64,000 bases of DNA, taken from Capsulimonas corticalis. GTDB taxonomy: Bacteria; Armatimonadota; Armatimonadia; Armatimonadales; Capsulimonadaceae. Under the pieces are notes generated by a model. It was not told the origin of the DNA. It was given only the letters and a program-made list of their open reading frames with translations, and made no database searches. Below are positions 9,325-25,261 of this stretch, piece after piece (position 1 is the first letter of the stretch; each line of letters begins with the position of its first letter). Location: contig NZ_AP025739.1 of assembly GCF_003574315.2 (NCBI RefSeq), positions 4,340,001 through 4,404,000 of the forward strand. Reading direction: 5' to 3'. The position numbers and the translations under genes were made by a program.

Positions 9325-12036
9325 TTATTCACCGGGGCCGCCGTTGTCGGCCGGCGCATCGCCTCCCGGCGCGGGCGGAGTGTCCGCCGGCGCGGCGGCG
9401 TTCGGAGCCGGCGCGGCTTCGGCCGCCGCGCCATTCTCCGCATTGGAGGCGGCCGCGCCGGGCGCCGGAACCACGAGCGGAGGCGGCGGCGCGCCGGCGG
9501 GCGGCGGGGTAATCGTGACCGTCGTCGTCACCGGGCCGGGCGCGGGCGGAGCGCCGTTCCCTGCCGGCGCCGCCGACGCGCCCGCTCCGGTGACCGGCGG
9601 AGTCGGGTTGATAATGGGCGGCGCGATCGGAGCCGTCTTGGTCGGCGTCGCCCCGCTCAGATTCGTCGAAGAGCCCAGCAGCGCCTTGGGAAGATATCCG
9701 CGCACCGGCTGATCGATGCCCAGTACCGTTTGCTCGCGCAGTTTTCGCGCTTCCTCGGGATCGCGGACGACATGCGGGGTGAGGAACACCAGCAGCTCCG
9801 TCTTCTTTTTCTCTCGGCTCGTGGACTTGAACAGGTTGCCGATCAGCGGAATATCGCCCAGGATCGGCACCTTGGAGACGGTGGACCCGTAAGATGTGTT
9901 CATGATGCCGCCCAGCACGATCGTCTCGCCGTCCTTCACGCTGGCCGTGGTCTGCGCCTCGCGCTGATTGACGATCGGGGCGTTGAACGACGTGTAGCTG
10001 ACGAGGTCGTTGGCGGTCTGCGTAACATCCATCGTGACATAGCCGTTTTCGGTGATTCGCGGCGTCACCGTCAGGACGATGCCGACATCGAGGAACGAAT
10101 AGTTGGAGATCGTTCCGACGTTGAGGTCGGTGGTCTGGCTGGTCACGTAGGGGATGCTCTGGCTGATGTTGATCTGCGCCTGCGCGTTATTCGTGGTGAA
10201 GATGCGCGGCGTGCTCAGGACATCGAAGCGGGTGTCGCTCTTGACGGCCTGAAGGAAGACGGAGTACTCGCCGGCGTTGAGCGTATAACGGAAGCCCTGG
10301 GGCTGCGCCGTGTTGGCTTGTACGCCGAACGACTGGGTTCCGGTCGCCGTTCCATTCTTGATGCCGAACGGCTTTCCCTGAGCGAAGTTCCACTCGACGC
10401 CCAGTTCATTGGTGGCGTCGAGGTTGGCCTCCACCACAAGCGTTTCGATCATGACCTGCTCGGGGATCTGATCCAGCTCCTTGAGGATCGACTCCACGAG
10501 CGGCCGGTTTTCCGGAGCGGTGACCACAATCACGCTGTTGGTGTCGATATTTGGGATCAGCAGGACCTCGTTGTTGAGGTCTCGCACGTTGACGACATGG
10601 CCCTGGCTGTCGAAGCCCGTGGTGATCGTAGTCGAGGCCGAGCCGGACGTGGAGCGTGAGGCGCTGTTGTTGTTACTATTGTAGTTATTCTGATTGGTGC
10701 TTCGGTTCGTTGTGCTCGACGAGCCGCCGACCCCGGAGTTGATGGTGCTGGACGACACCGTTTGTCCCGTCAGCGAGCCGCCGCCGGCGGTGGAGGAGCT
10801 GGATCCGCTCCGTCCGAACGATTGGTTGAGCAGGTTGGCGACGACATCGGCGCGCGCGTTCTTGAGGGTGTAAACGAAGGTCGTGCCGACATAATCCACC
10901 TGCTTGTCGATCTGCGCGATGACCTGGGTGGCGACCGCGATATTCTCCGGCGTCGCCGTGACAATGATCGAGTTGGTGCGCGTTTCGGCCACGACCGTGC
11001 CGTTCGCCGTGCTCTGGGTGTTGTTCTGTCCGCCGCCTCCAAAGAACCCGCCGAATCCCCCGAAGCCGCCGCGGCGCTGATTATTATTGTTGTTATTGTT
11101 CGTGGTCGAGGCCGCGCCCCGTCCCAGCGTCGTGCTGGTGCTGATGACGCTTTGCAGCACCGTCGCCGCGTCAGACGCCAGGGCGTATTGCAGCTTGAAG
11201 ACCTTGGTCTGCCGTGGGGACGCGGTCGGCTTATCGATCTGGTCGATGATGTCGGCCACTTGATCCTGATCGCGGCTGGAGGCGTTGACGATGATGGAGT
11301 TGCTGTAATCGTCCGCCGACGCCTTCACGGTGGAGGTTCCCGCTCCTCCTCCTCCGCCGCGCCGGCCGCCGCCGCGCCCGCCAAATCCGCCGGCTCCAAA
11401 GCCCGCCGCGCCAAAGCCGCCCGCCGCCGGCGCGCCCGGGGCTCCGGGAGCGCCGCCCTGGGTATTCCCCGTGTCCACGGCGGCCGCTGCGGCGTTTGCG
11501 AAGACATCGTTGATAGCGCGGGCGAGCTGTGTGGCGTTCGCATATTTGATGGTGTAAACGCGCATCTCCACCGCGCTGCTGCGGCCGCCGCCTCCAAATC
11601 CGCCCGCGCCCTGCCCGCCACCAAATCCGCCTCGTCCGAATCCGCCGAACGATGGGCGCTGCGACTTGGGCTGCACCAGCAGGAAGCTGCTTTGCTTGAC
11701 GATCTCAAAGTTCTTCAGTCCGAGGGTGGCGTTTACGATCGCGAAGGCGTTCGCGAGCGACTGCGGCGTCGGACTCTGCACGGTGATGCCGCCGGTCAGC
11801 GAAGGATCCTTGATGATCGTCACGCCGCTCGCCTGGCTGAGAACGTGAAGGACCGCGTCGACATTGCTGTTCCGGAAGTCCAGGGTGACTCGCGCCTTGG
11901 GATTCAGCTTGAATGAGTCCCAGGGCGCGGCGGCCGCCGCCGGCGCCGCAGGGGCGCCGCGGTCGAACTGCGCGTGCGCGGAAGTCCCGCAGGCGGCGAG
12001 GGCTGCGAGCATGACGATGGATTGTTTAGTCCTCAT
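9325..12036 (-). CDS. gspD: Type II secretion secretin GspD
   Basis: Outer-membrane secretin (903 aa) forming the exit channel of the type II secretion system. Residues 1-22 are a signal peptide. Several N domains follow (repeated motifs such as VYTIKYANATQLARAIND, VFKLQYALASDAATVL and FVYTLKNARADVVANLL), separated by Gly- and Asn/Ser-rich linkers. The secretin core near 520-780 has the conserved VPILGDIPLIGNLFKS and TELLVFLTPHVV segments. The last 120 or so residues are a Pro/Ala-rich disordered tail. It is the last gene of the gsp operon. The Gly-rich insert near 145-240 and Asn/Ser-rich insert near 430-480 are longer than in proteobacterial GspD. Confidence 0.95.
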   Translation of the reverse strand: MRTKQSIVMLAALAACGTSAHAQFDRGAPAAPAAAAAPWDSFKLNPKARVTLDFRNSNVDAVLHVLSQASGVTIIKDPSLTGGITVQSPTPQSLANAFAIVNATLGLKNFEIVKQSSFLLVQPKSQRPSFGGFGRGGFGGGQGAGGFGGGGRSSAVEMRVYTIKYANATQLARAINDVFANAAAAAVDTGNTQGGAPGAPGAPAAGGFGAAGFGAGGFGGRGGGRRGGGGGAGTSTVKASADDYSNSIIVNASSRDQDQVADIIDQIDKPTASPRQTKVFKLQYALASDAATVLQSVISTSTTLGRGAASTTNNNNNNNQRRGGFGGFGGFFGGGGQNNTQSTANGTVVAETRTNSIIVTATPENIAVATQVIAQIDKQVDYVGTTFVYTLKNARADVVANLLNQSFGRSGSSSSTAGGGSLTGQTVSSSTINSGVGGSSSTTNRSTNQNNYNSNNNSASRSTSGSASTTITTGFDSQGHVVNVRDLNNEVLLIPNIDTNSVIVVTAPENRPLVESILKELDQIPEQVMIETLVVEANLDATNELGVEWNFAQGKPFGIKNGTATGTQSFGVQANTAQPQGFRYTLNAGEYSVFLQAVKSDTRFDVLSTPRIFTTNNAQAQINISQSIPYVTSQTTDLNVGTISNYSFLDVGIVLTVTPRITENGYVTMDVTQTANDLVSYTSFNAPIVNQREAQTTASVKDGETIVLGGIMNTSYGSTVSKVPILGDIPLIGNLFKSTSREKKKTELLVFLTPHVVRDPEEARKLREQTVLGIDQPVRGYLPKALLGSSTNLSGATPTKTAPIAPPIINPTPPVTGAGASAAPAGNGAPPAPGPVTTTVTITPPPAGAPPPPLVVPAPGAAASNAENGAAAEAAPAPNAAAPADTPPAPGGDAPADNGGPGE

Positions 12037-12106
12037 AATCGTACGGTCTTCTTTCCACGAAGGATCGGGCGCGGCGTGGGACGCCGGCGCGGACAGTGTT
12101 CAAAAA

Positions 12107-12811
12107 TTAATTCTGCTGACGGCGCCGCCGTCCGCGTCCGCCGCCAAACTGGGCGGCGCCTCCGGTGTCGGCGCTGGGCGCGGCGTCCGGCGTCAACCCG
12201 GGCAGCGGCTGGATCGGCATGGGAACGAGCATGCTGGGCGCTCCGGGCTGCCCGGGAGGAAGCGGCGGCGCGCCGGGAACGCCCGGCGCGCTCGCGGCGG
12301 CGGTCATCGGGCCTGCGGGCTCCGGCGCGTCCGTTTTGAACGCCAGTCTCGTCTGCTGTCCAATTCCATTCTCAAGCACCAGGAACTCAGTGGCGATCTG
12401 CACCACGCGGAGCCCTCGCCAGGTATCGCCGGCCTTCAAAAAGGCGACGTCGCCGGAGGAGCGATTCTCCACCACGGCGCTTGCGACGCCGTCGATCGTG
12501 TTGACCCCGGTTAGCTCCCATTCGCCCTTGCTGGCTGAGACGTTGGGTTTCGGCGGCGCTTTGACGATCGCGACGGGCTTGGGCGGCGTCACGACCGCCG
12601 CGAAGGCGTCACGCGCTCCGCCGGCGTAGCGGGTGAAATGCGCGTTATAGTCGGCGTCGGTGAAGCCGTCCGGAGTCTGGACGGTAACACTGGTGTGCTT
12701 GACTTTTTTGTGCGCGACCGGTGGGTCCGGCTCGGTCAGGAACACCACCGCACCCGCGACGACGGCGGCAAGAAGTGTATAAATGACGGGGCGACTGATC
12801 TTTTTAGCCAT
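12107..12811 (-). CDS. GspC/PilP-like inner-membrane connector
   Basis: A 234-aa bitopic protein: short cytoplasmic start, membrane helix at about 9-26, a Pro-rich stretch, then a small beta domain (about 95-150; WELTGVNTIDGVASAVVENR followed by VAFLKAGDTWRG) that matches the homology-region domain by which GspC or PilP contacts the secretin. The tail is Gly/Pro/Ala-rich. It is positioned between the gspM-like gene, which it overlaps by 8 bp, and gspD. Assignment as GspC rests on the domain pattern and position; similarity is too low to exclude a PilP-like name. Confidence 0.75.
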   Translation of the reverse strand: MAKKISRPVIYTLLAAVVAGAVVFLTEPDPPVAHKKVKHTSVTVQTPDGFTDADYNAHFTRYAGGARDAFAAVVTPPKPVAIVKAPPKPNVSASKGEWELTGVNTIDGVASAVVENRSSGDVAFLKAGDTWRGLRVVQIATEFLVLENGIGQQTRLAFKTDAPEPAGPMTAAASAPGVPGAPPLPPGQPGAPSMLVPMPIQPLPGLTPDAAPSADTGGAAQFGGGRGRRRRQQN

Positions 12812-13376
12812 TGCCGCCTCCTCCCGATTGAACGGTTGCGATCACGGTTTCGGTGGCGGGAAGGTAGGCGGAGAGGCCCACGGTCGCCGTCACGACATTC
12901 GCCTTGGCGCCTCCCGCCGACATGTCCACCGAACGCAGCGCGGTCTTGCCGTTTTTGGCGTCGAACGAGGCGAGCACGCCGCGAACCTGCGGATAGCTTC
13001 CCGAGAGCTGGGCCGTGTAGCGAAGCTCCGCAACGCCGTCGAGCGTCTGCCCGCGCTGCGGGCGAAACGATGTTAGCGACACGCCTTGCTGGCGCGCATT
13101 GTCGGTCAGCTGGGCGAGCACCGCCGAGGTCACCGAGCGCGGATCGCCGGGCCAAAGGCGGGGCGCGGCGGCGGCTTGCGAGCTGCGCGTGCGCAGCGTC
13201 GCCGTCGTCGTATCCCGCAGGATCCGGCGGCGCATCAGCCGGTGCGCCCGCTCGGCGCTGGCGACGGTTGGCGCGGGGACCAGCAAAATATAGAGCAGGG
13301 CGGCGCTCATCAGAACGATGGACAGCAGGATCAGCGCGCTGGGGAGGATTTCATCCCGATTCTTGAAGTTGATCAT
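12804..13376 (-). CDS. GspM/PilO-like assembly protein
   Basis: A 190-aa protein with one N-terminal membrane helix (about 12-32), a short helical linker and a ferredoxin-like periplasmic domain (SVTSAVLAQLTDNARQQGVS, then SYPQVRGVLASFD). This is the layout of GspM and PilO, which pair with GspL/PilN in the inner-membrane platform. The start codon overlaps the gspL stop by 4 bp and its end overlaps the gspC-like gene, so translation is probably coupled. Confidence 0.8.
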   Translation of the reverse strand: MINFKNRDEILPSALILLSIVLMSAALLYILLVPAPTVASAERAHRLMRRRILRDTTTATLRTRSSQAAAAPRLWPGDPRSVTSAVLAQLTDNARQQGVSLTSFRPQRGQTLDGVAELRYTAQLSGSYPQVRGVLASFDAKNGKTALRSVDMSAGGAKANVVTATVGLSAYLPATETVIATVQSGGGGNG

Positions 13377-14683
13377 TGCGCCGCTCCCGTCGTTTTCGTC
13401 GTGACCGTCGTTTTGCGCGCCGTGGCGGTCGTGGGCTTTTCGGGCGCCGGCATCGGCAGATTACCCACGCAGACGGCGGTCACATTGAACTGCACGACCG
13501 GGACGGCGCCGATCGTTCCGGTGCTCGCGAAGACGAGCTTGACATCGCGGAACCGAGGACTCGCGCCCAGCGCGTTGACGAACTGCGTGACGTCGCCGGA
13601 GGTCTTCGCCATACCGCGCGCTTGCAGCGCTTTTCCTCGCTCGACCCCGATTCCGGTAAGCCATGCGCCCGCTGGAAGCTGGTCCGCGACATAAGCGACG
13701 ACATCGCTGAGCGGCTGCGCCGGCTCAAAGGCGCTGCGCATCGTATTCTCAATGTGGATGGCGGTCTGCGCCTTCTGCGTTTCCACCTCTTCGATGGCCT
13801 GCATCCGCTTGGACTGCCGCGCAAAGGACGTGTTGCTGCTTTGAACGGCGCGCGCCGCGTCGTTGCGGTCCAGAAATGCGAGAAGGCAGAGCAGGAGCGC
13901 CGAGACCGTCATCAGCGACGCCAGGCGCGTGCGCGCCGCGATCCGCTTCTTCGCCTCCAGAATCCGTTCTTCCGCCAGCTCGAAGGCGAATGCGGGCGCC
14001 TGGTCCAGCAGCGTCAGCAGATCGCTGCGGCTTGTCAGGCCCGAGGGGAGGGTGAGGTCCCCGGTCGCGACCAGCGGCAGCGCGCCCGACTGCGCCGCCG
14101 CCATCGTGCGCTGCGCCTCCACGGCCACATCGCTGTTCAAAGCGGCGAGGCGGCTAAATCGAATAATCCCGTCCTGTACGACGTCCAGCCCCAGGCCGCC
14201 GGGATCGGCGGCGGCGACAATGGCGTCCGGCGCGCCGGCGCTCGCGGCGGCGGCCGGCGCCGCGAGCGAGAGCGGCAGGATGCGCTCCGCGTGGACCCCG
14301 GCCTCGCGCAGCTCCGTTTTGAGCCGGCGCAGGTCGTCGGACCGGATCGCGCCGATCAGGGTCAAGTAACCCTCGCCGTTATGATCGGCGGTCTGCACGA
14401 AATCAAACGAGAGCTGGTCCGGCGGCAAAGGGAACAGCTGGGCCATCTGGATGCCGAGAATGCGGCGCAGGTCTTCCGGGGCGGCTTTGGGCAGGCGCGC
14501 CGTCTTGAGGAAGACAAGGCTGCGGCCGACTCCGACCAGCACGTTTTTGTTTCCGTTCCAAAACGAGCGCAGCTCCGGCAAAGCCGTGGCGGCGGCCCTG
14601 GCCCCGGTGGCGGCGTTGACCACCTCCACAAAGCCGGGAGTCCAGGAGACATGAATGGGAGGCGCGGCGGGACTGCGGCTCAT
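13373..14683 (-). CDS. gspL: GspL-like platform protein (PilM/PilN fusion type)
   Basis: A 436-aa protein whose first 250 residues resemble the actin-like cytoplasmic domain of GspL/PilM, followed by a membrane helix near 270-290 (LASLMTVSALLLCLLAFL) and a periplasmic PilN-like ferredoxin domain. The start at 14683 is chosen because GGAGGAG lies directly upstream and the ATG overlaps the gspK stop by 4 bp; an upstream in-frame Met lies inside gspK. It should recruit the GspE ATPase to the membrane platform. Confidence 0.85.
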   Translation of the reverse strand: MSRSPAAPPIHVSWTPGFVEVVNAATGARAAATALPELRSFWNGNKNVLVGVGRSLVFLKTARLPKAAPEDLRRILGIQMAQLFPLPPDQLSFDFVQTADHNGEGYLTLIGAIRSDDLRRLKTELREAGVHAERILPLSLAAPAAAASAGAPDAIVAAADPGGLGLDVVQDGIIRFSRLAALNSDVAVEAQRTMAAAQSGALPLVATGDLTLPSGLTSRSDLLTLLDQAPAFAFELAEERILEAKKRIAARTRLASLMTVSALLLCLLAFLDRNDAARAVQSSNTSFARQSKRMQAIEEVETQKAQTAIHIENTMRSAFEPAQPLSDVVAYVADQLPAGAWLTGIGVERGKALQARGMAKTSGDVTQFVNALGASPRFRDVKLVFASTGTIGAVPVVQFNVTAVCVGNLPMPAPEKPTTATARKTTVTTKTTGAAQ

Positions 14684-15963
14684 TGCGCTCCTCCTGAGGT
14701 TGTTGTCGACGTTGTCGTCGTATTGGTGATCGTAAGCGCGTCCTGATTCGATGTGGCGCTGGCGCTCCAGTCCCACCAGGTCGGGACGCCGGGCGTATTC
14801 AGCTGCTGCCAGCTTAAGACCTGCGGAGCCGCGTTGGTGATTCGAATGGTCGCTTCCAAAGCGGCGCTCGATCCTCCGCTGGCGCCGTAGGCGCGCACGG
14901 TCCAGGTGTCGCCGCCGATGGTGACGTAATCGGCGATCTGCGCGAGCTGCCCCTGCGTGAGCTGGAGCGTCGTCGCCAGCTGTCCGAGCGACGTAAAGCC
15001 GCTGTTTTGCTGCGTCACGATGGACGCGGCGGTTGCTTGAGACATATTCGGAATGGTCATGAGTACGGACTGTGTTGCGGTGTTGATATTGATCAGGCCG
15101 GGCGTTCGTGTCGCCGTTGTGAACTTCGCGATATTGAGCAGGGTCGATTGGTCGTTCGCGTTCATCTGTACCTGTGTGAACAGCGTGCGGAACGACGTGA
15201 ACGGAGCGCGCTGCGCGATCTGCGCGGCGACGGGAGCGCTGATTCCCGCCGTCCGAAGGGATGCGGGCGTGACCCCGCGCTGCGAAAGATTAATGCGCGC
15301 GGTTCCATCGGCGCGTGTCGCGCCCGCGCCGCTGTCCACCGTGAGAACGGAGGCGAGCGGCAGCGCGACGCCGGCGGCGTCCTGAATTGGCCCGGCGGTC
15401 GTCGTTACGGTTGTCTGCGGCTGGTAGAGCATGCTTCCGGTCCAGTTCTTGATCAGCAGCAGCTCGTCCAGCGTCGTGAGCTGCCCTAATCTCGTATTGT
15501 ATGGCTGCGTCAAACCGTTGTAGTAGGAGTCTTTCGCCCCGTCGGAGCGGGGCTGCGTCCCCGTCTCCCGCCAATCGAGCAGGCAGTCCGATTGCTCGGT
15601 GGTCAGCGGCAGCAGCGCCAGCTGCGCGGCCCCGGCCGTATTGATATTGACCATCGAACCGGCGTCCACGATCTGCATGCGAAACGTCGAATCTCCCAGA
15701 TCGTAGCTGACGTCCCCATTGCCGCCAAGCTGCGCCCAGGCGTCGTTTTGGGTTACCTGACTGGTGTTCGCCGTGAGCAGCGTCGCCATCGCATAGGCGA
15801 TCGCCGACCGCTCCGCCGCTTCCGCGCGGCGTTCACGCAGCTTGTTTTGCGTCTGCTGCATGGAGGCGCGCTGATCGGAGGCGATGATCGCCATCAGGGC
15901 GACCAGCACCAGGATCACCATCAGCGCCTCGATATAGATAAATGCCCGCCGTTGTGCTCTCAT
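14680..15963 (-). CDS. gspK: Minor pseudopilin GspK
   Basis: A 427-aa large minor pseudopilin. The N-terminus has a short basic leader, the prepilin cleavage context A-FIYIE with Glu at +5, and a hydrophobic helix. The body contains two helix-hairpin-helix-like segments (VNINTAGAAQLALLPLT and ININTATQSVLMTIPNM), a hallmark of GspK. It should cap the pseudopilus tip with GspI and GspJ. The start at 15963 overlaps the gspJ stop by 4 bp; a longer frame upstream lies inside gspJ and is rejected. Confidence 0.9.
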   Translation of the reverse strand: MRAQRRAFIYIEALMVILVLVALMAIIASDQRASMQQTQNKLRERRAEAAERSAIAYAMATLLTANTSQVTQNDAWAQLGGNGDVSYDLGDSTFRMQIVDAGSMVNINTAGAAQLALLPLTTEQSDCLLDWRETGTQPRSDGAKDSYYNGLTQPYNTRLGQLTTLDELLLIKNWTGSMLYQPQTTVTTTAGPIQDAAGVALPLASVLTVDSGAGATRADGTARINLSQRGVTPASLRTAGISAPVAAQIAQRAPFTSFRTLFTQVQMNANDQSTLLNIAKFTTATRTPGLININTATQSVLMTIPNMSQATAASIVTQQNSGFTSLGQLATTLQLTQGQLAQIADYVTIGGDTWTVRAYGASGGSSAALEATIRITNAAPQVLSWQQLNTPGVPTWWDWSASATSNQDALTITNTTTTSTTTSGGAQ

Positions 15964-16694
15964 GAGAGACCCTGCGCCGAATCGGGATTGGACGCCGTGA
16001 CATTGCTGGTTGGGATCGCCACCACGAAGACGTGCACGCTGTTGTCGGGGGCGCTGCGCAGCCGATAGCTGATCTGCACCGCCGCCGGCAGACGCCGGTC
16101 TCCCGTCGCCACCGTGTCCCAGGAACTGATCCACTGCGTCCCCGTCCAGAACTGGAACCCGATCTGGCTAATATCGGCGTCCATCGTCGATTCGAAACCG
16201 CCCTGCGTCGGATCGCCGTCGCTCGGGTGCTGGATCCGCTCGAACAGACCGGTATGCGATCCGGCGTCGCCCACGGCCGTCGTACTCAGCGAAATCTCCG
16301 TGACGCCGCCCACCGGCCCGCGCGCCGCCTGCTGTGTTTCAAAATCGTCGGCGCTGTCCTGCGTCGCAGCCGGGACGCCGGGGGCGGTCGTGGTGAGCGT
16401 CAGCCGGTCGCACCCCAAATCGCTCTGTCCGCCCGCCGAAATCCCCTGAAAAAACGTGCTCGTATCGGTCGCCGTGGAGGTGATGCGCGCGCCGCGCAAA
16501 ATCCTCGTAATTTCCCGCTCGGTCCGGTCCGTCGCGTCCTGCTCCGCCAGACGCGTCGTATGCGCCTGCTGAAGATGTGTCGCCGCCTGAAACGCGTAGG
16601 CCAGGGCGGTCGCCAGGATCGCCGCGATCGTCATCGCCAGAAGAAGCTCCAGCAGCGTCAGGCCGGCCTGCATTCGCTTTTTGCGATCGTTCAT
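15960..16694 (-). CDS. gspJ: Minor pseudopilin GspJ
   Basis: A 244-aa pseudopilin with leader MNDRKKRMQAG, cleavage before LTLLE (Glu at +5) and a hydrophobic helix of about 20 residues. Length and position between gspI and gspK fit GspJ. It overlaps gspI and gspK by 4 bp each. It would be processed by a prepilin peptidase not encoded in this window. Confidence 0.88.
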   Translation of the reverse strand: MNDRKKRMQAGLTLLELLLAMTIAAILATALAYAFQAATHLQQAHTTRLAEQDATDRTEREITRILRGARITSTATDTSTFFQGISAGGQSDLGCDRLTLTTTAPGVPAATQDSADDFETQQAARGPVGGVTEISLSTTAVGDAGSHTGLFERIQHPSDGDPTQGGFESTMDADISQIGFQFWTGTQWISSWDTVATGDRRLPAAVQISYRLRSAPDNSVHVFVVAIPTSNVTASNPDSAQGLS

Positions 16695-17077
16695 TGCGTT
16701 TGCGCCGTGGTGGAAGTCGTCGTGGCGGGCGGAACGTAGACGAATTCCGTGATCGCCTGCGAGTCGCGAGCCCGGGTCGCGGTGACGGTCACCTGATCGA
16801 CATAGGCGGTGCTGCTGGTCTGGACGTCCATATTCCAGGAGATATCCGTGTAGCCGCGATCCGTGAAGTCTCCGCTCGTGGCGTATGTGCTGGGGTCGCC
16901 GTTGACGCGGACGTCCTCCAGCTTTTCCGACGCCAGCCGCTGGAGCAGATCGGCGCTGTTCGCCTTGATATCGGCCGCCGTCAGCGCGCGGATGCCGCCA
17001 AAGACGCCTACGACGGCGATCGCCACCAGCATGGTCGTGATGACCACCTCGACTAATGTGAATCCTGCTTTAGCCAC
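16691..17077 (-). CDS. gspI: Minor pseudopilin GspI
   Basis: A 128-aa pseudopilin beginning with GTG at 17077. The leader is very short (VAKAG), followed by FTLVEVVITTMLVAIAVV, a standard type III signal with Glu at +5. The GTG overlaps the gspH stop codon by 8 bp and follows GGGAG. Upstream Met codons in frame lie inside gspH, so the long frame is not the protein. The size fits GspI. Confidence 0.88.
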   Translation of the reverse strand: MAKAGFTLVEVVITTMLVAIAVVGVFGGIRALTAADIKANSADLLQRLASEKLEDVRVNGDPSTYATSGDFTDRGYTDISWNMDVQTSSTAYVDQVTVTATRARDSQAITEFVYVPPATTTSTTAQTQ

Positions 17078-17624
17078 GCTGCTGCAACTCTCCCGCCGTC
17101 CATCGGTCCTGCGCCGTATCCGGAAGCGCGTCGGCGATCCAGCGGATCTCGCCCGTGCTCGTGATGACGAGCGATTTGCGCGCCGAGCCCTCCAAAAACT
17201 GGAGGCCGCCGCTGTCCGAGGCGCCATCGGGATAGACCGTCCACCGCCATGTCCCCGGATCCGCCGTGGCGTTGTTGAGCTGGGCCGCCTCGATTTGAAC
17301 GTCGGAAGTCAGATCGACCTGCCGGACCGACTCCGCCGCGCCGGTGACGGGCGTGCGCTCCATGACCACCGACGAGCCGTCGATGCGGATCGTGACGGGC
17401 TTTTGCGAAGAACGGGCTTCGTTTTGCGCCTGTACCGGCATGCGGGCGATCGAGGCGTTGAGCTGGGCAAGCTCGCGGGAGCGCTTGACGGCGGTGAGAT
17501 TGGGCGTGACCAGGGCGACGAAGAGCATCAGGACCACGAGGACGATGCTGAGCTCGATCAGGGTGAAGCCCGCCGCGCGCCGGCGCGCGGCGCCGATCCG
17601 TCTTCGCCGTAGTCCGTTGCTCAT
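17070..17624 (-). CDS. gspH: Minor pseudopilin GspH
   Basis: A 184-aa pseudopilin with a basic leader ending RAAG, then FTLIELSIVLVVLMLFVAL (Glu at +5). The beta-rich C-terminal domain (VTIRIDGSSVVME, LQFLEGSARKSLVITSTGEI) fits GspH/FimT. It overlaps gspG by 4 bp and gspI by 8 bp. Confidence 0.88.
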   Translation of the reverse strand: MSNGLRRRRIGAARRRAAGFTLIELSIVLVVLMLFVALVTPNLTAVKRSRELAQLNASIARMPVQAQNEARSSQKPVTIRIDGSSVVMERTPVTGAAESVRQVDLTSDVQIEAAQLNNATADPGTWRWTVYPDGASDSGGLQFLEGSARKSLVITSTGEIRWIADALPDTAQDRWTAGELQQRG

Positions 17625-18070
17625 TGGTCGCTGGTGATGTCCGCGGCGTCGCCGTCGCCGCCCGGCTGGCCGTCCGCGCCATACGATGTGATCAGGAAGT
17701 CCTGTCCATCCGGGCCGGGCGCCTGGTAGATGTACTCATTCCCCCAGGGATCGGTCGGCAGGGCCTTGGTGGTGTAGGGGCCTTTCCAATTGCGCGCGCT
17801 GCTTGGCTTCGTCACGAGAGCCTGCAAGCCTTCCTCGGTCGTCGGGAAGCCGTCGTTGTCCAGCCGGTACTGCTGGAGCAGACTGCTCAGCGTCGAAATG
17901 TCGCTGGAGGCCGACGCTTTCTTCGCGTCGCTGGTGCGGCTGACGAGGCGCGGGACGATGAGCGCCGCCAGGATCGAGAGGATCAAGATGACGACAAGCA
18001 GCTCGATGAGCGTAAATCCACGGCGGGATCGCAGAGATGGGCGGGATCGGTGTAGGTTTCTGTTTTTCAT
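17621..18070 (-). CDS. gspG: Major pseudopilin GspG
   Basis: A 149-aa major pseudopilin. The prepilin signal is [19 protein letters not shown]. The body carries the family's diagnostic segments: FPTTEEGLQALVTKP, W-KGPY, LPTDPWGNEYIYQAPG, and the calcium-binding loop SYGADGQPGGDGDAADI near the C-terminus. This makes it a classical T2SS GspG and sets it apart from the DUF1559 pseudopilins elsewhere in the window. Confidence 0.97.
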   Translation of the reverse strand: MKNRNLHRSRPSLRSRRGFTLIELLVVILILSILAALIVPRLVSRTSDAKKASASSDISTLSSLLQQYRLDNDGFPTTEEGLQALVTKPSSARNWKGPYTTKALPTDPWGNEYIYQAPGPDGQDFLITSYGADGQPGGDGDAADITSDQ

Positions 18071-19287
18071 TTGACTAGGTTCTGCGCTTCGAAGATGGGG
18101 AGTAGCACGGACAGGACGACAAACCCTACAAACGTTCCTAGGGTCAGCACGATGATGGGCTCGACGAGCGCCACGAGACGGCGCATTCCCGTGTCGACCT
18201 CGAAATCCAGGCTGTCGGAGACTCGTTCGAGCATCCGGGGAAGGTTGCCGGTTTCTTCCCCAACGGCGACCATGTGCGTGAGCACGGGCGGAAACGCGCC
18301 GGCGTCGCGCATCGCTTCAGCGATCGGCCGGCCGGCGCGCACTTCTTCCTCAACGAGAAGCGCGCTGCGCTGAAACACTTTGTTGCTGGCGGATAGCCCC
18401 GCGATTTGCAGCGCCTCCAGGATCGGCACGCCGCCATGGACCAGGGTCCCAAGAACGCGGCTGAAACGCGAAACCGTTCCCTTCTGGATGACGGAGCCGA
18501 TGATGGGCGCATTCAGCAGAAACTTATCGCGCGAATACGCGCCCGCCGGCGTCAGCAGCCACAGGCGCAGGCCGACGATCAGACCGATCGTCACGGTCAC
18601 AAGAATGACCCAGTAATGCGTGGCGAAGTCCACGCCGCCAAGCAGCATCTTGGTCGTAAGGGGAAGGTCCGTCCCCATATCTTTGAAGACGGGAGACAGC
18701 TTCGGCAGCACGAAAGTGACGAGAAAGATGACGACGAACAGCGAGGTGGACGCCAGTACGGCGGGATACACCAGGGCGCCGACGATTTGGCCGCGCCGCA
18801 TGACATCCGATTCTTGGTACTCCGCGAGCCGCGCCGCGACATCCCCGAACTGGCCGCTCGCCTCGCCGGCGCGCAGCGTTTCGGTAAAGATCGCGTTGAA
18901 ATATTTCGGGTGCTTCGACAGCGCCTGACTGACCGACATGCCGGAGCGGACATCCTCCAGCGCTTCCTCGGCGACCCGCTTCAGCGTGAGGCTCTCGGAC
19001 TGTTCGATCACGACTTGCAGCACGCGGTCCAGAGGCAGGCCGGCGGAGGAAAGGTCCGCGAGACGGCGCGTGAACAGCGCCAGATCCTGTCGGGACGGCG
19101 CCTTGCGGCTGCCGGTCGCGATGGGGGACGCGCCGCCGGCGCTGGACGCCTCGCGGATATCCAGCACGAAGCGCCCTTCGGCGGCAAGCCGCGCGATCGC
19201 CGCGTCCCGGGTCTCCGCGTCGACCGATCCGCTGCGCCGGGCGCCGGCCGCATCCATCGCGGTGTAATCGTAAGTCAACTGAGCCAT
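18067..19287 (-). CDS. gspF: Inner-membrane platform protein GspF
   Basis: A 406-aa polytopic protein with two T2SSF domains (about 70-195 and 270-395) and three membrane helices. Family signatures are LALFTRRLADLSSAGLPLDR, SRFSRVLGTLVHGGVPILEAL and a C-terminal LVEPIIVLTLGTFVGFVVLSVLLPIF. It follows gspE with no gap and overlaps gspG by 4 bp. Confidence 0.97.
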   Translation of the reverse strand: MAQLTYDYTAMDAAGARRSGSVDAETRDAAIARLAAEGRFVLDIREASSAGGASPIATGSRKAPSRQDLALFTRRLADLSSAGLPLDRVLQVVIEQSESLTLKRVAEEALEDVRSGMSVSQALSKHPKYFNAIFTETLRAGEASGQFGDVAARLAEYQESDVMRRGQIVGALVYPAVLASTSLFVVIFLVTFVLPKLSPVFKDMGTDLPLTTKMLLGGVDFATHYWVILVTVTIGLIVGLRLWLLTPAGAYSRDKFLLNAPIIGSVIQKGTVSRFSRVLGTLVHGGVPILEALQIAGLSASNKVFQRSALLVEEEVRAGRPIAEAMRDAGAFPPVLTHMVAVGEETGNLPRMLERVSDSLDFEVDTGMRRLVALVEPIIVLTLGTFVGFVVLSVLLPIFEAQNLVK

Positions 19288-20871
19288 TTAGACTGTTTCC
19301 CGCCGGCAGACGCGCAGGACTTCCTCGGGCGTCGTTTTGCCTTCGAGCACCGCAATCACGCCGTCGCCCAGCAGAGTCCGCATGCCGTGCGTTTGAACGG
19401 CGTGATCCTTCATATCGTTGGAGCTGGAGCGGGCGACGGTCAGCCGCCGAATCGTTTCGTCAATCGTGAACAGCTCGTACAAACCGACGCGTCCTTTGTA
19501 GCCGCTGTGCTGGCACCGGTCGCAGCCGCGTCCGCGCCGGAACGGCGCCGCGCCGACCCACTCATTGCCCGTCAAGCCCAGCGCTTCGAGCATTTCCGGC
19601 TTGGGGGAATCCGGCTCGCTGCAAAAGACGCAGTTGCGGCGAACCAGGCGCTGGGCGATGGCGCCGATCAGCGAAGAAGCCACGAGATAGGGCTCGACGC
19701 CCATGTCCAAAAGCCGGGTAACGGCGCCGGGCGCGTCGTTGGTGTGCAGAGTGCTGAAGACCAGGTGTCCCGTCAGCGCCGCGTTGATCGCGATGTCCGC
19801 CGTTTCCTGGTCGCGGATCTCTCCGACCATGATCACGTCCGGGTCCTGGCGGACGATCGAGCGCAGGCCGTTCGCGAAGGTCAGGCCGATGGCGGGCCGG
19901 ATCGGGATCTGCCCGATTCCGGGCAGCTGATACTCGACCGGGTCCTCGACCGTCAGGATATTCGTGGTCGGCGACCAGATCTCGCGCAGCGACGCATAGA
20001 GCGAGGTGGATTTTCCGGAACCCGTCGGCCCCGTCGCCAGAATGACGCCGTAGGGCAGACTGATCATCTGGCGGTACTTCGCCAGCGTGTCGGACCGCAT
20101 GCCGAGCTCTTCCAGACCAAGCATCGCCGTGTTCTTGTCCAGAATACGCATGACGGCGCGCTCGCCATAGACGGTGGGAACGATGCTGACGCGGACGTCG
20201 ATCGGCCGTCCGGCGATCACGATCTTGATACGCCCGTCCTGGGGCAATCGGCGCTCGGCGATGTTCATTTCGCCCAGGATCTTGATTCGCGAGATAATCG
20301 CCGCGTGCATACGCTTTGGCGGCGTCATCACTTCGCGAAGCATGCCGTCCACACGGTATCGGACATGCACGTCCCGGTCGTAGGGCTCCACATGGATGTC
20401 GCTCGCGCTGTCCCGCACGGCCTGCGCGAAGATCAAATTGACCATCTGGATGACGGCGGTTTCGCCCGCCATCTTTTGCAGGTCGGCAAGGTCCGTCGTC
20501 TCGTCCGCATCGAGCAGCGTCGATCCGTCGGATTCGCCGGGCAGGCCCGCGAGAATGCGCTCTAAAAAGATCTCCTCGATCTTCTCGCGCACAAAGGCCG
20601 GCGACGCCAGCACTGCGCGGGTAGGCATCCGGATCAGCAGGCCAAGCTCGTCCACCGCGACCAGCGCCTCGGGCGCGCCGATCGCCGCCACGAGAACGCC
20701 GTTTTCCACCGCGAGCGGCAGCACCTGATTTTTCAAGGCAAAGTCGCCCGGAGAAAGCTGAATGGCTTCTTCGGTCGGCTTGACGATCTCAAGATCCACC
20801 CATTCAAAACCGTCCTTCAAAACGGCGTGATTGGGGATCGAGATGGATTCGGTAGGGATTGAAATCGACAT
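19288..20871 (-). CDS. gspE: Type II secretion ATPase GspE
   Basis: A 527-aa hexameric cytoplasmic ATPase that drives pseudopilus assembly. A MshEN-like N domain (about 35-115) precedes the N2 and catalytic domains. Visible motifs: Asp-box near 305-312, Walker A GPTGSGKST at 281-289, Walker B and GEIRD near 350-354, His box STLHTND near 373-379, and the zinc tetracysteine Cys414, Cys417, Cys450, Cys453. It is the first gene of the gsp operon; no clear promoter was identified in the 120 bp upstream. A shorter paralogue lies at 61028. Confidence 0.97.
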   Translation of the reverse strand: MSISIPTESISIPNHAVLKDGFEWVDLEIVKPTEEAIQLSPGDFALKNQVLPLAVENGVLVAAIGAPEALVAVDELGLLIRMPTRAVLASPAFVREKIEEIFLERILAGLPGESDGSTLLDADETTDLADLQKMAGETAVIQMVNLIFAQAVRDSASDIHVEPYDRDVHVRYRVDGMLREVMTPPKRMHAAIISRIKILGEMNIAERRLPQDGRIKIVIAGRPIDVRVSIVPTVYGERAVMRILDKNTAMLGLEELGMRSDTLAKYRQMISLPYGVILATGPTGSGKSTSLYASLREIWSPTTNILTVEDPVEYQLPGIGQIPIRPAIGLTFANGLRSIVRQDPDVIMVGEIRDQETADIAINAALTGHLVFSTLHTNDAPGAVTRLLDMGVEPYLVASSLIGAIAQRLVRRNCVFCSEPDSPKPEMLEALGLTGNEWVGAAPFRRGRGCDRCQHSGYKGRVGLYELFTIDETIRRLTVARSSSNDMKDHAVQTHGMRTLLGDGVIAVLEGKTTPEEVLRVCRRETV

Positions 20872-20991: not shown

Positions 20992-22545
20992 CTATGATAT
21001 GATAACGGGCGAAGATGAAAATGGTATGAAGAAGGCGCGCAGCTTTTCGCCGGCGTCCTCCAGCCACGCGGGATCCCACGCCGCGCCGGCGTCCAGCATC
21101 GCCCGCAGCGTGTCCTCGAACGCCTCCCACGGTCGTTCCTGGTTATTGTTCGCCCCATGGATCGCCCACTGCATCGGCGTCGTCCCAAAGTCGGCGCCGA
21201 CGCTTTCCAGCGCCGCGCCGCGCGCCGTGAGCAGCCGGACGACATCGGCGTGCGCCCGCCAGCAAGCCCAGTGCAGCGCCGTCGCATGGTTAGCCCCGCG
21301 CGAATCCGGCGAAACCCCCAGGTCCAGCAGCGCCCGAACGGCCTCAATCCGCCCATGCTCCGCCGATTCGGCCAGCAGCGCCGGGCTTTGCTGGAGAACT
21401 TTGGCCGCCTGATCGGGATCGGTCTGGCGCAGCGCGCTGAGAACGGAGAGATCGCCGAGCGCAAGCGCCGCGATGATCCGATCCTCCTCCGTGAGAGCCG
21501 AGTTCGCCCCCCGCGATTCCAGCAAGGCGGCAATCTCCGTCTGCCCCGTAAGCGCCGCCTGGCGAAACGGCGTCCAGCCCTCGGCGCTCCGCGCTTCCAT
21601 ATCCGCGCCATACTCCACGAGCAGCCCGATGCAATCCGGACCGCGCCGCCGCAGGATCGCCCAGTGCAGGCTGTTTCCGCCCGTTGGCGAGCTTCGATTG
21701 GGATCCGCCCCATGGCTTAAGAACAGGCGCAGCCCCTCCGAATCCTCATAGTCCAACTGATGCGCCAGCGCGTTCGTGGCGTTGGGATCCGCCCCGCGCC
21801 GCAGCAGCAGCGCCGTGCATTCGTTGGCGGCTTGCTCCACCGAATGGTAGAGCGATTCATTGTCATTGGGATTGGCGCCCGCATCCAGCAGCATCTCCGC
21901 AAGCTCGGCGTCGTGCAGGACGCCCGCCGCGCCGTACAGGGCGCTCAGCGGAAAATCCTCAAACGGCGCCTCGCGATACGACGCATTCGGGTCCGCGCCC
22001 GCGTCGATCAACAACTTCACCGACGCCAGTAAGTGCGGCCGCCGCTCGGCGTCCTGAAAGAAACGGGAGAACACGGCGTAGAGCAGCGGGAGACGCTGTC
22101 GCGGTCCGCCGGCGGCGTTCGCCAAACCGCCCTCACGCGCGAGGAATCCACGCAGCGCGTCCGCATCGCCATAGGCCGCCGCCGAATAAATGGAGAATTT
22201 CGCAAGCTCCGGCGTATCGTCCAGCAGCGCGCGCGCCTTCGCAAGCTTGCCTGCAATCGCCGCCTCGACAAACGCGTCCGCCTTCGCGCCGAGATCCATC
22301 TGCGCGGATTGCAGCGCCACGACGAGTCGCGGCCAGCTGGGAAAACCATGCTCCCGCGCCAGCACAAGCTGCGCGTCCGTGAGTTTGGGAATGCGATTTG
22401 GAGAATTTCGAAACTGTGGATGGTGCGTGTGAAAGCGCTCCCGCGCCTCCAAAGAGCTGGCCTGCGCGGCCCGAAGCAATTCCTTCGCCTGCGTGCGAAG
22501 CCGCGCCAGATCGGCGACGGTGAGTGTGGACGTGTGAGAAGACAT
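20992..22545 (-). CDS. Ankyrin-repeat protein
   Basis: A 517-aa protein made largely of ankyrin repeats from about residue 90 to the end, with repeats such as LLDAGANPNDNESLYHS, LLRRGADPNATNA, FLSHGADPN, LVEYGADMEARSAEGWTPF and LLDLGVSPDSRGANHATALHWA. There is no signal peptide or enzymatic domain; the first 70 residues contain an FPSWPRL-type motif often seen ahead of such repeats in bacteria. AAGGGAG precedes the ATG. Its binding partner is unknown. An eroded ankyrin fragment lies at 59490. Confidence 0.9.
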   Translation of the reverse strand: MSSHTSTLTVADLARLRTQAKELLRAAQASSLEARERFHTHHPQFRNSPNRIPKLTDAQLVLAREHGFPSWPRLVVALQSAQMDLGAKADAFVEAAIAGKLAKARALLDDTPELAKFSIYSAAAYGDADALRGFLAREGGLANAAGGPRQRLPLLYAVFSRFFQDAERRPHLLASVKLLIDAGADPNASYREAPFEDFPLSALYGAAGVLHDAELAEMLLDAGANPNDNESLYHSVEQAANECTALLLRRGADPNATNALAHQLDYEDSEGLRLFLSHGADPNRSSPTGGNSLHWAILRRRGPDCIGLLVEYGADMEARSAEGWTPFRQAALTGQTEIAALLESRGANSALTEEDRIIAALALGDLSVLSALRQTDPDQAAKVLQQSPALLAESAEHGRIEAVRALLDLGVSPDSRGANHATALHWACWRAHADVVRLLTARGAALESVGADFGTTPMQWAIHGANNNQERPWEAFEDTLRAMLDAGAAWDPAWLEDAGEKLRAFFIPFSSSPVIIS

Positions 22546-22739: not shown

Positions 22740-23117
22740 TTACTGATCGGCGTCGCGCTGCACGAGCAGCCAGTTGGTTTTGTTGATGGGATCGCGGTAG
22801 AGACGGAAATTGACGAGGGTAGGGCGCATGATGTAGGTGAGGGTGTATAAAATCTCGCTATTGAGCGCGTTGGCCTTGACGCCTTCTTTGAAGACGCCGT
22901 AGACCAGTCGGTTGTTGGTGGAAGGGGCGATCTGGGTGAAGAAGTTTTTGCCGAACGCGTAGACGGGGTCGACTTTGGTCAGATCCGTCGCGTACTGGTT
23001 GTAAAAGCCGATGATCCCCGCATCGTCCAGCATCACCGCTCCGAAGGGGAGGGCGTCGAGCTGTTCGTGGGACATCAAGGGCAGGCTGCGGAGCATCTCA
23101 TCGCTCACAAAACTCAT
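22740..23117 (-). CDS. Photoactive yellow protein-like PAS protein, Cys replaced by Ser
   Basis: A 125-aa single PAS domain with full-length similarity to Halorhodospira photoactive yellow protein (also 125 aa), especially LDALPFGAVMLDDAG, GKNFF and YGVFKEG. The position of the chromophore-binding Cys69 (APCTD in PYP) is Ser66 here (APSTN), so it cannot attach p-coumaric acid through a thioester. Tyr42 is kept (Tyr39), Glu46 is Ala43, Thr50 is kept (Thr47). It is the last gene of an operon with two coiled-coil proteins, 53 bp after the second. It may sense another ligand or serve as a protein adaptor. Related proteins are often misnamed phosphonate transporter in databases. Confidence 0.85.
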   Translation of the reverse strand: MSFVSDEMLRSLPLMSHEQLDALPFGAVMLDDAGIIGFYNQYATDLTKVDPVYAFGKNFFTQIAPSTNNRLVYGVFKEGVKANALNSEILYTLTYIMRPTLVNFRLYRDPINKTNWLLVQRDADQ

Positions 23118-23170
23118 GGGTATTTCGACTTTCTCGGTGAACGGTTTCGCCGCAAATCTTTGTGGTCAGG

Positions 23171-23569
23171 TTACTTGGCGCTCAAATGGTGAAACGCGGC
23201 GATAATTTCGTCGGCGTCCGCACGGCCGAGCTCCCGCTCCAGCTTTGCCCGCTCTTCATAGAGAGAAACCAGCTGCGCCTCAAGACTCTCCATCGCGGCG
23301 CTGAGACGTTTGATTTTGCCGGCGAAGGCGCTAAAGCGCGCATGCGCTTCCTGGAGGTCGGTGGCGTCGTCTCCGATCACGACTTGTTCGGGCGTCGGCT
23401 GAAGATCCTGGACCTTTTGCTCCAGCGCGCGCACCTTTAGGACCAGCTCCTCCGCGTCGGCGGTCCCCAGACTGCGCTCCAGCAGGATGTTGTTTTCCGT
23501 GAACGAGGCGATTTGAGCCTCCATGGCGCCGATCATTCTGGCCGGATCGCGAAAAAGTGAATTGGGCAT
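23171..23569 (-). CDS. Coiled-coil protein with LG-x-ADA motifs
   Basis: A 132-aa soluble, strongly helical protein not assigned to a known family. Two stretches repeat the same pattern: LLERSLGTADAEELVLKVRA near residues 29-48 and LERELGRADADEIIAAF near 109-125. The same motif occurs in the upstream 293-aa protein. The start at 23569 follows AAGGAA at good spacing; an in-frame Met nine codons earlier is less likely. It sits between the longer coiled-coil gene and the PYP-like gene, 38 bp from the former, suggesting that the products assemble together. Confidence 0.75.
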   Translation of the reverse strand: MPNSLFRDPARMIGAMEAQIASFTENNILLERSLGTADAEELVLKVRALEQKVQDLQPTPEQVVIGDDATDLQEAHARFSAFAGKIKRLSAAMESLEAQLVSLYEERAKLERELGRADADEIIAAFHHLSAK

Positions 23570-23607
23570 GATTGTGGTTCCTTGGACTGACCCCATCCGG
23601 CGCGACG

Positions 23608-24489
23608 TTAGTGCAGTTCGAGATGTTCCAGGTCCTTCTCCATAGCGCCGAACAGATCCACAAGGCCGCGCAGCGCGGCGTTTTCGGCGCTGAGCTTACG
23701 CATCGTCGCGGCGATCTGGATGGCGTCCGCGGCGCCAAGCTCTCGTTCTAAAATCGCTTGATTGCTTTCCAGGATCAGCATCCGATCGACCAGCCGCGCC
23801 ATGTCCTGGCGCGCGGTTCGGATCGAGCCGATAATGGCGCTGCTCTCCCAGGTATTTAGCTCCCGCTTCAGGTTGGCTTGATTGGCTTCCATGCGGTGAA
23901 TGTCGGCGGTCGCCATGGATAGCTGAGAGCGCAGGTCGGCGGTGACGGCGTCGTTGGCGGCGGCTTGATTCGCCAGCATATACGTCATATCCGCCAGCTC
24001 ATCCTTCCATCGGCGCGTTTCCTCAATGATCTCCGCCGGCGAGGCCGTGCCGAGCTCAATGACGAGCTTGAGCTGCTCCGAGGCGACGAGAGGATTACGA
24101 AGGACGGTGTTGAGATTTTCCGTGGTGGCGATGGGCATCGCTTCTTCCAGCGCCCGCAGGAGCGCCCGCAGAAGCCGCGCTTCGTAAAGCACGGCCGGAT
24201 GAGGGGCTCCTCTGTGGGTTTGGTGGATCACCCGGATATTGGCCATCTCCCACTGACTGCGCGTCTGTGCGTACATCAGGGCCACCACGGGTTCGATCTG
24301 TTCCGGATCGGTGATGTCCTCCAGGACGCGCTGGAACTGCTCCCGCATATCCGCGACCCGCCCGGCCGCGATGACGAATGGCTCCTGCGGCAGATCCGCC
24401 CATGGAGTGAGGCAGCGCTCCATCTCGTCGGTGAGAGAAGAAGACTGTAGAATGCTTTCGATTGTGGTGCGGAGCATCGAGACTCGCAT
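23608..24489 (-). CDS. Coiled-coil protein, head of PYP-like operon
   Basis: A protein of about 293 aa, helical throughout, with no recognised family. The N-terminal third (DEMERCLTPWADLPQEPFVI, MREQFQRVLEDITDPEQIEP) may be globular; the remainder is coiled coil with repeated patterns VIELGTASPAEIIEETRRW, LKRELNTWESSAIIGSIR and LERELGAADAIQIAATMRKL. The last is closely similar to the motif in the next gene. The start at 24489 (or 24477) is chosen because a promoter -10 box at 24544-24549 would begin transcription about 50 bp upstream, excluding earlier Met codons. No membrane segment is seen. Confidence 0.75.
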   Translation of the reverse strand: MRVSMLRTTIESILQSSSLTDEMERCLTPWADLPQEPFVIAAGRVADMREQFQRVLEDITDPEQIEPVVALMYAQTRSQWEMANIRVIHQTHRGAPHPAVLYEARLLRALLRALEEAMPIATTENLNTVLRNPLVASEQLKLVIELGTASPAEIIEETRRWKDELADMTYMLANQAAANDAVTADLRSQLSMATADIHRMEANQANLKRELNTWESSAIIGSIRTARQDMARLVDRMLILESNQAILERELGAADAIQIAATMRKLSAENAALRGLVDLFGAMEKDLEHLELH

Positions 24490-24530
24490 TTCCAGCGGTA
24501 CGCAGCAAATTTGGGAATTGGGTGTTCGTG

Positions 24531-24549
24531 TGCTGTACAGCAAATTATA
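24531..24549 (-). promoter_or_regulatory. Promoter -10 and palindrome of PYP-like operon
   Basis: A perfect minus-strand TATAAT (24544-24549) is followed at once by the 12-bp perfect palindrome TGCTGTACAGCA (24531-24542), which would lie at the transcription start and is a candidate operator. The -35 region is not close to consensus. Confidence 0.6.
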
Positions 24550-24640: not shown

Positions 24641-24817
24641 ATGAACTTTGGAATGCCATGTATGGATTGTGGTGAAGAAACCGACCGGATGCACGAGAAT
24701 TATTGCGCTGCTTGCAAACGCATACGGAGTGGGGGGCTGGCGTCTCCTGGGCCGGCCCGACACGTTCCCCTGCTTCTTCGGCTGCTCCTTGTCGTCAAAA
24801 GCACTTTCCAATTGTGA
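24641..24817 (+). CDS. Small zinc-ribbon protein (copy 1)
   Basis: A 58-aa reading frame starting MNFGMPCMDCGEETDRM with Cys7, Cys10, Cys22 and Cys25, a CxxC-x11-CxxC zinc-ribbon. The first 27 residues match the next gene at 24879 in spacing and sequence (PC-x-x-CGEET, YC-x-x-C-x-KR), so the two are tandem paralogues; the rest is different. There is no ribosome site; a CACAAT -10-like box lies exactly 6 nt before the ATG, as in copy 2. A frame-shifted overlapping frame starting at 24648 lacks the cysteine pattern and is not supported. Confidence 0.7.
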   Translation: MNFGMPCMDCGEETDRMHENYCAACKRIRSGGLASPGPARHVPLLLRLLLVVKSTFQL

Positions 24818-24878: not shown

Positions 24879-25064
24879 ATGACAGTTGGCTTACCATGTA
24901 TCACCTGCGGCGAAGAGACGGCCACGTGCAATGATGACTATTGCGGACGCTGCGGCAAGCGTTTGAAAGATGTGTCTCAAGTTTCGAACAGCGCCGACGG
25001 CCGCGCTTTCCGCTCGCCGCTGCAGCGAGTCGTTCTTTTGATCCAGAGTATCTTCCTGCGCTAG
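24879..25064 (+). CDS. Small zinc-ribbon protein (copy 2)
   Basis: A 61-aa protein beginning MTVGLPCITCGEETATC with Cys7, Cys10, Cys22 and Cys25 as likely zinc ligands, then a basic, partly hydrophobic tail. It is a tandem paralogue of the 24641 gene over the N-terminal third. The function is unknown; such small ribbons can bind nucleic acid or a protein partner. An intrinsic terminator follows at 25093. Confidence 0.75.
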   Translation: MTVGLPCITCGEETATCNDDYCGRCGKRLKDVSQVSNSADGRAFRSPLQRVVLLIQSIFLR

Positions 25065-25232: not shown

Positions 25233-25261
25233 TTGACAGACTCTGAGGCGTGTATTATAAT
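25233..25261 (+). promoter_or_regulatory. Consensus promoter of DUF1559 gene
   Basis: TTGACA (25233-25238), exactly 17 bp, TATAAT (25256-25261): a perfect sigma-70-type consensus, 144 bp before the start codon at 25405. A promoter this strong normally needs repression, supplied by the operators immediately downstream. Confidence 0.92.

Follow-up and report, generated by a model that had tools for sequence, protein, structure and literature searches.

Introduction

The definition of the photoactive yellow protein (PYP) family, as the text of PMC9664959 gives it, includes a conserved cysteine, Cys69. Homologues without this residue are known as a class, and the same text proposes a change of function for Cys69-substituted PYPs such as Ppr; it also places the PYPs of Salinibacter and Leptospira in clade B. 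How single-domain PYPs signal onward is called unknown, or an important gap, in passages of PMC9664959 and PMC12826048. The neighbours that these two texts list for PYP genes are GGDEF/EAL, histidine kinase, chemoreceptor, ligase, lyase and BLUF genes, and a report in PMC2993699 links a PYP-containing protein to chemotaxis. The term coiled-coil is absent from the main texts of PMC9664959 and PMC12826048, and their sections on operons and neighbourhoods do not mention the helical domain described below.

Here we analyse a stretch of 64,000 nucleotides from Capsulimonas corticalis (the window), in which a PYP-like protein without the Cys69 of the family definition is encoded together with two further proteins, CC1 and CC2.

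Results

The PYP operon and its surroundings

The three genes occupy positions 22740-24489 of the minus strand in the order CC1-CC2-PYP, with intergenic gaps of 11 and 53 nt; the operon noted in the initial annotation is confirmed (Table 1). CC1 ends at a stop at 23608 and probably starts at 24489 or 24477, within a mechanical reading frame that opens at 24642. The ankyrin-repeat gene downstream is probably not part of the PYP module, as no such gene adjoins PYP in the relatives. The type II secretion cluster lies just downstream of the operon, which in another genome (G007) directly follows GspD, and in G154 the operon is found near PilT-like genes. As far as shown, the secretion cluster is a neighbour outside the module; these proximities hint at an output and are to be taken as a lead only. 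Divergent from the operon, a tandem pair of similar small zinc-ribbon-like peptides of the CxxC-x-CxxC type is encoded on the plus strand (24641-24817 and 24879-25064), and a sigma-70 consensus promoter, perfect at 12/12 positions (25233-25261, plus strand), lies upstream of a prepilin-type gene.

Table 1. Features of the PYP operon and the genes around it (positions in the window).
Feature	Position	Strand	Remark or basis
PYP-like protein, 125 aa	22740..23117	-	E46A, C69S, F96L (H. halophila numbering)
CC2, 141-aa coiled-coil protein	23171..23596	-	homologues with 40-residue SMExQLxxLYxxRxxLExELG repeats
CC1, N-terminal helical domain and coiled-coil tail	23608..24489	-	profile and reading-frame analysis
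CC1 helical domain, 123 aa	24088..24456	-	invariant Trp69, Asn73 (domain numbering)
LERELGRADA motif in CC2	23213..23242	-	motif comparison
LERELGAADA motif in CC1 tail	23722..23751	-	motif comparison
Ser66 codon TCC (Cys69 position)	22920..22922	-	sequence and alignment
Ala43 codon (Glu46 position)	22989..22991	-	sequence and alignment
Leu93 codon CTC (Phe96 position)	22839..22841	-	sequence and alignment
Ankyrin-repeat gene	20992..22545	-	194 nt downstream of PYP
Cluster of type II secretion genes, GspE to GspD	9325..20871	-	GspE, GspF by Pfam; rest by eye

A PYP with an altered chromophore pocket

Residues 2-121 of the window PYP align with PYPs of solved structure at an E value of about 1e-21, and the TIGR02373 model covers it over 119 of its 124 positions (87.1 bits, E 9.5e-25), a score that misses the curated cut-off of this photo_yellow equivalog, 143.05 bits. 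The predicted structure is a confident PYP fold whose best structural matches are all PYPs, with a TM score of about 0.92. The alignment over the full length that had been noted from the sequence is thus borne out; a better match to an ordinary PAS family, named beforehand as what would speak against it, was not found, the best general PAS model reaching only 5e-4, below its cut-off. Sequence and predicted fold mark the 125-aa protein as a genuine homologue of PYP.

Compared with 39 homologues, the window PYP keeps 20 of 23 near-invariant positions and breaks only Glu46, Cys69 and Phe96. All three lie in the chromophore pocket, and the chance that three changes would all hit the six pocket sites among the 23 is 0.011. 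Cysteine occupies position 69 in 39/39 aligned homologues and glutamate position 46 in 38/39; the alignment bears out the serine and the alanine that the initial annotation read at these two places and adds the leucine at Phe96. The protein retains Tyr42, Phe62, Ala67 and a good part of the pocket wall. Cys69 being absent from the sequence, the further claim that light sensing by the usual thioester is impossible is supported. The single-contig window genome gave no match to Lyase_aromatic (PF00221) anywhere, nor any close p-coumarate ligase, the best having 32% identity.

Relatives with the cysteine in the same order

The first PYP search covered 61 genomes, with matches in the window genome and in four genomes of its order. 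CC1-CC2-PYP stand in the same order at five loci in the four genomes. All four complete PYPs of these loci keep Cys69 (in an APC motif), and the fifth (G011) stops at the contig end just before the site. A ligase-type gene, named by eye, follows PYP at two loci (L008, L009), and at a third (L010) the ligase is fused to an aromatic lyase; in G011 a ligase-lyase gene is found on another contig, adjoining a short match to the PYP C terminus, and the second copy of the operon in G018 (L011) has no ligase or lyase gene nearby. The PYP at L010 (8018-8380, from G007) has Gln46 for Glu46 and keeps Cys69. In two more Armatimonadota, of another family, a ligase-type gene comes next after PYP or further along the same cluster, and in one of these clusters (L034) it is a ligase-lyase fusion.

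In the PYP tree the window protein groups with the Cys69-bearing PYPs of its order (support 98/87), although its exact place within this group is not fixed by the short alignment. Losses confined to the pocket, the missing lyase and the intact Cys69 in operons of the same order all point to the window PYP as a secondarily light-blind member of a genuine PYP operon, and the tree agrees. Only one genome has a Cys-less PYP in the CC1-CC2-PYP form, and the locus is absent from a genome of the same genus (G001, 69% complete). On one point the initial annotation needs correction: the partners are not tied to the loss of the cysteine, and CC1 and CC2 accompany Cys69 PYPs, often with chromophore genes, in the relatives and across phyla.

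A second group of Cys-less PYP domains was seen in Salinibacteraceae-type bacteria, where giant coiled coils made of CC2 repeats end in a PYP domain with the motif APSTNN (L063, L070, L073, L076 and relatives). These domains show C69S, replacement of Glu46 by Ala or Gly and loss of Tyr42, and Cys69 PYPs are encoded at the same locus. They form a separate clade (support 100/100) and apparently represent a second, independent light-blind class; the tree gives no support to a common origin with the window PYP. On the simplest reading of the sequences, the cysteine would have been lost in the window lineage and, in a separate event, elsewhere, C69S and the loss of Glu46 going together in both cases.

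CC1 carries a helical domain absent from Pfam and NCBIfam

The two partners had been described as coiled-coil proteins of an unrecognised family. For CC1 the coiled-coil tail stands, but the protein is not simply a coiled coil, since a globular helical domain precedes the tail. A converged profile set (alignment A5) defines this domain as about 123 residues with an invariant Trp and an invariant Asn, both kept in the window; it is predicted to be all-helical (pLDDT 93). The profile finds the window domain, itself one of the profile rows, at E 6e-30, and first-pass profiles from Armatimonadota independently linked CC1 across to other phyla. The window CC1 and CC2 have diverged, with 21-32% identity to their homologues. 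At E <= 0.01 Pfam gave no family for the CC1 domain, apart from one marginal DUF1048 match in 1/29 members; NCBIfam gave no match for the same 29 members, so that the domain did prove to be absent from both collections. Searches of PDB sequences with the profile and of folds with Foldseek returned nothing significant, and the C-terminal helices of HscB, the best VIA match, have a score (Z 8.9) that common helical arrangements also reach. A roadblock-type protein suspected upstream of CC1 in G011 was dropped, Pfam giving no family for it.

Some homologues join this domain to chemotaxis-type signalling modules. In Oligoflexus (L080) a protein containing Hpt and HATPase_c ends in a C-terminal CC1 domain, and long proteins similar to it occur at other Bdellovibrionota loci; at L058 and L060 CC1 is fused to CheW domains, and a CheW-like domain comes after CC1 at loci of Gemmatimonadaceae and Sericytochromatia. 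In Pseudobacteriovorax, genes named by eye as a CheA-like protein, ligase, CC1, lyase and PYP are clustered. In Ignavibacteria- and Kapabacteria-type genomes (L144, L145, L147, L148) CC1 adjoins an S41-type protease and an RNase J-like metallo-hydrolase, assigned by eye, and not PYP, and two sampled genomes without PYP carry CC1-domain genes that are weak family members (L142, L143).

A motif shared by CC1 and CC2

The LERELG-x-ADA motif reported for both proteins is real. The segments NQAILERELGAADA of CC1 and ERAKLERELGRADA of CC2 are identical at 10/14 positions, while in 200 shuffles the best identity was 9, reached once. The motif recurs at an exact spacing of 40 residues in homologues, which identifies it as the mark of a repeat unit. 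Fusions of PYP with CC2-type repeats occur at L064 and among Bacteroidota.

The partners follow one clade of PYPs

Used alone against genome contigs, the window PYP found no match and an alignment that included the most divergent members left no conserved stretch, whereas the PYP family alignment succeeded and gathered 78 loci. Among these, the CC1 and CC2 profiles built from Armatimonadota match genes that adjoin PYP in a wide range of other phyla. With clade labels assigned here from the PYP tree and from the clade B placement in PMC9664959, CC1 lies within 3 kb of PYP at 30/48 clade-B-type and 0/27 clade-A-type loci. For coiled coils of the CC2 type that are fused to PYP or no more than 300 bp away from it, the figures are 32/48 against 0/27, the clade-A loci serving as the control for profiles that can catch generic coiled coils.

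Co-occurrence was also counted in whole genomes, with p values that ignore kinship between genomes. Among 291 Armatimonadota, CC1 occurs in 7/7 genomes with PYP and in 1/284 others (Fisher p 2e-13), the lone exception being a genome that is 72% complete. Weak PYP matches in G006, G228 and G229 were partial, lay inside frames of 700-1150 aa and were treated as generic PAS domains. Of 394 evenly sampled genomes of the Salinibacter phylum, those with a PYP at E < 1e-40 have CC1 in 11/11 cases and the remainder show weak CC1 matches in 2/383; counting one weaker PYP match, the figures are 11/12 and 2/382 (p 1e-18). In a set of 49 genomes with PYP, drawn from many phyla, CC1 is present in 31/31 of the clade-B type and 0/18 others, and several of its copies are distant from PYP or located on another contig; some profile rows come from these 49 genomes, so that the Armatimonadota and Salinibacter-phylum samples are cleaner, yet a few rows overlap there too. 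That homologues might never co-occur with the coiled-coil genes, the other outcome set against the initial annotation, is decisively contradicted (31/31 versus 0/18; 32/48 versus 0/27). We take CC1 and CC2 to be, most likely, the partners of clade-B PYPs in signalling; in the window they would be uncoupled from light.

Discussion

We lean towards regarding the operon as a light-blind form of a PYP signalling module that is itself widespread; here the apo PYP would be kept in an assembly with CC1 and CC2. Conserved gene order and near-obligate co-occurrence, the fusion of CC2 repeats to PYP and that of CC1 to CheA/CheW modules argue for such a signalling assembly; the physical complex, the direction of signalling and a continued function of the apo protein are what we infer, the assembly itself from gene order and co-occurrence. 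Somewhat more tentatively, CC1 with the CC2 repeats could be the primary partner that has been missing from clade-B PYP signalling. It would connect these PYPs with CheA-type kinases or with other outputs, in an assembly that is usable after light has been lost as an input. Against a partnership stands the Ignavibacteria-type CC1, which lies beside a protease-like gene instead of PYP.

In the relatives, a Cys69 PYP carrying p-coumarate would sense blue light. Its signal would most likely be received or scaffolded by the helical domain of CC1 together with the CC2 repeat coiled coil; in some phyla it may then be handed to kinase modules of the CheA/CheW type, whereas most Armatimonadota would use a different route. 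CheA as a universal output was rejected, as CheW is absent from 4/7 Armatimonadota PYP genomes; the window CC1, CC2 and PYP contain no kinase or CheW domain, and CheW genes are present elsewhere in the window genome. The window lineage has lost the pigment site and the lyase that makes the pigment but has kept the PYP fold, CC1 and CC2; its PYP would most likely be a permanently apo subunit of the assembly, which may be driven by another input or may hold a fixed state.

Other explanations have to be set against this one. That the protein comes from some other, ordinary PAS family and does no more than resemble PYP can hardly be entertained and was rejected on profile scores and structure matches: the unmet TIGR02373 cut-off is on its side, but the PYP model scores 1e-24 against 5e-4 for PAS, the top structures are all PYPs, the tree nests the protein among Cys69 PYPs and the operon is the same as theirs. 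Non-covalent binding of some other ligand, such as a hydroxycinnamate, a CoA thioester, a flavin or heme, with signalling through CC1 and CC2, is unlikely, even though the confident fold model and the retained Tyr42, Phe62, Ala67 and pocket wall would suit it, since E46A and F96L take away two pocket contacts.

We also think it improbable that the locus is the decaying remnant of a PYP operon whose function went with the chromophore genes. The cysteine, Glu46 and lyase have indeed all been lost together, this is a single known case, and the incomplete genome of the same genus has no such locus; yet three intact frames persist in a tight operon, and the sparing of 20/23 near-invariant PYP positions and of the invariant Trp and Asn of CC1 would be unexpected under random decay. 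Still less do we expect CC1 and CC2 to belong to another linked system, for type II secretion or for type IV pili, which merely happens to travel with clade-B PYPs. To this very doubtful reading the secretion clusters in the window and G007, the PilT-like genes in G154 and the protease-like neighbour in Ignavibacteria could be attached, but the neighbouring systems vary by phylum and PYP is the constant associate.

The near-perfect tracking of one PYP clade by CC1, together with the CheA/CheW fusions, makes the question of PYP signalling directly testable by a simple binding assay, for which the Cys-less window PYP provides a natural control with the partners present and the light input gone. 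If the light-blind module is real, a PYP-CC1-CC2 assembly can persist and serve after light sensing has been lost.

It remains to place this operon among the known systems. With the PYP of the Halorhodospira halophila type (TIGR02373) the window protein shares the full-length fold, the length of 125 aa and the majority of conserved residues, among them Tyr42, Asn43, Pro68 and Met100; it differs in lacking Cys69, Glu46 and Phe96, in a genome without the lyase, and in having CC1 and CC2, both of which are absent from the tested genomes with H. halophila-type (clade A) PYPs. The clade B PYPs of Salinibacter and Leptospira are like the window in that their genomes carry CC1 and that PYP often has coiled coils of the CC2 type next to it, but they keep the chromophore cysteine. 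The Cys-less domains of the Salinibacteraceae resemble the window PYP in C69S, the loss of Glu46 and the tie to CC2-type repeats, yet they are fused, have Cys69 PYPs alongside and have lost Tyr42, whereas the window protein is single-domain and keeps it. To the CheA chemotaxis kinases the tie is through those CC1 domains that are fused to Hpt-HATPase_c or CheW domains, while the window CC1 has no kinase part. Finally, methylobacterial Ppr, as the text of PMC9664959 describes it, also has a PYP domain without the chromophore cysteine; domains of the Ppr type belong to fusions with histidine kinases, and some of them carry Y42C and S50C, whereas the window PYP is a single-domain protein encoded with CC1 and CC2.
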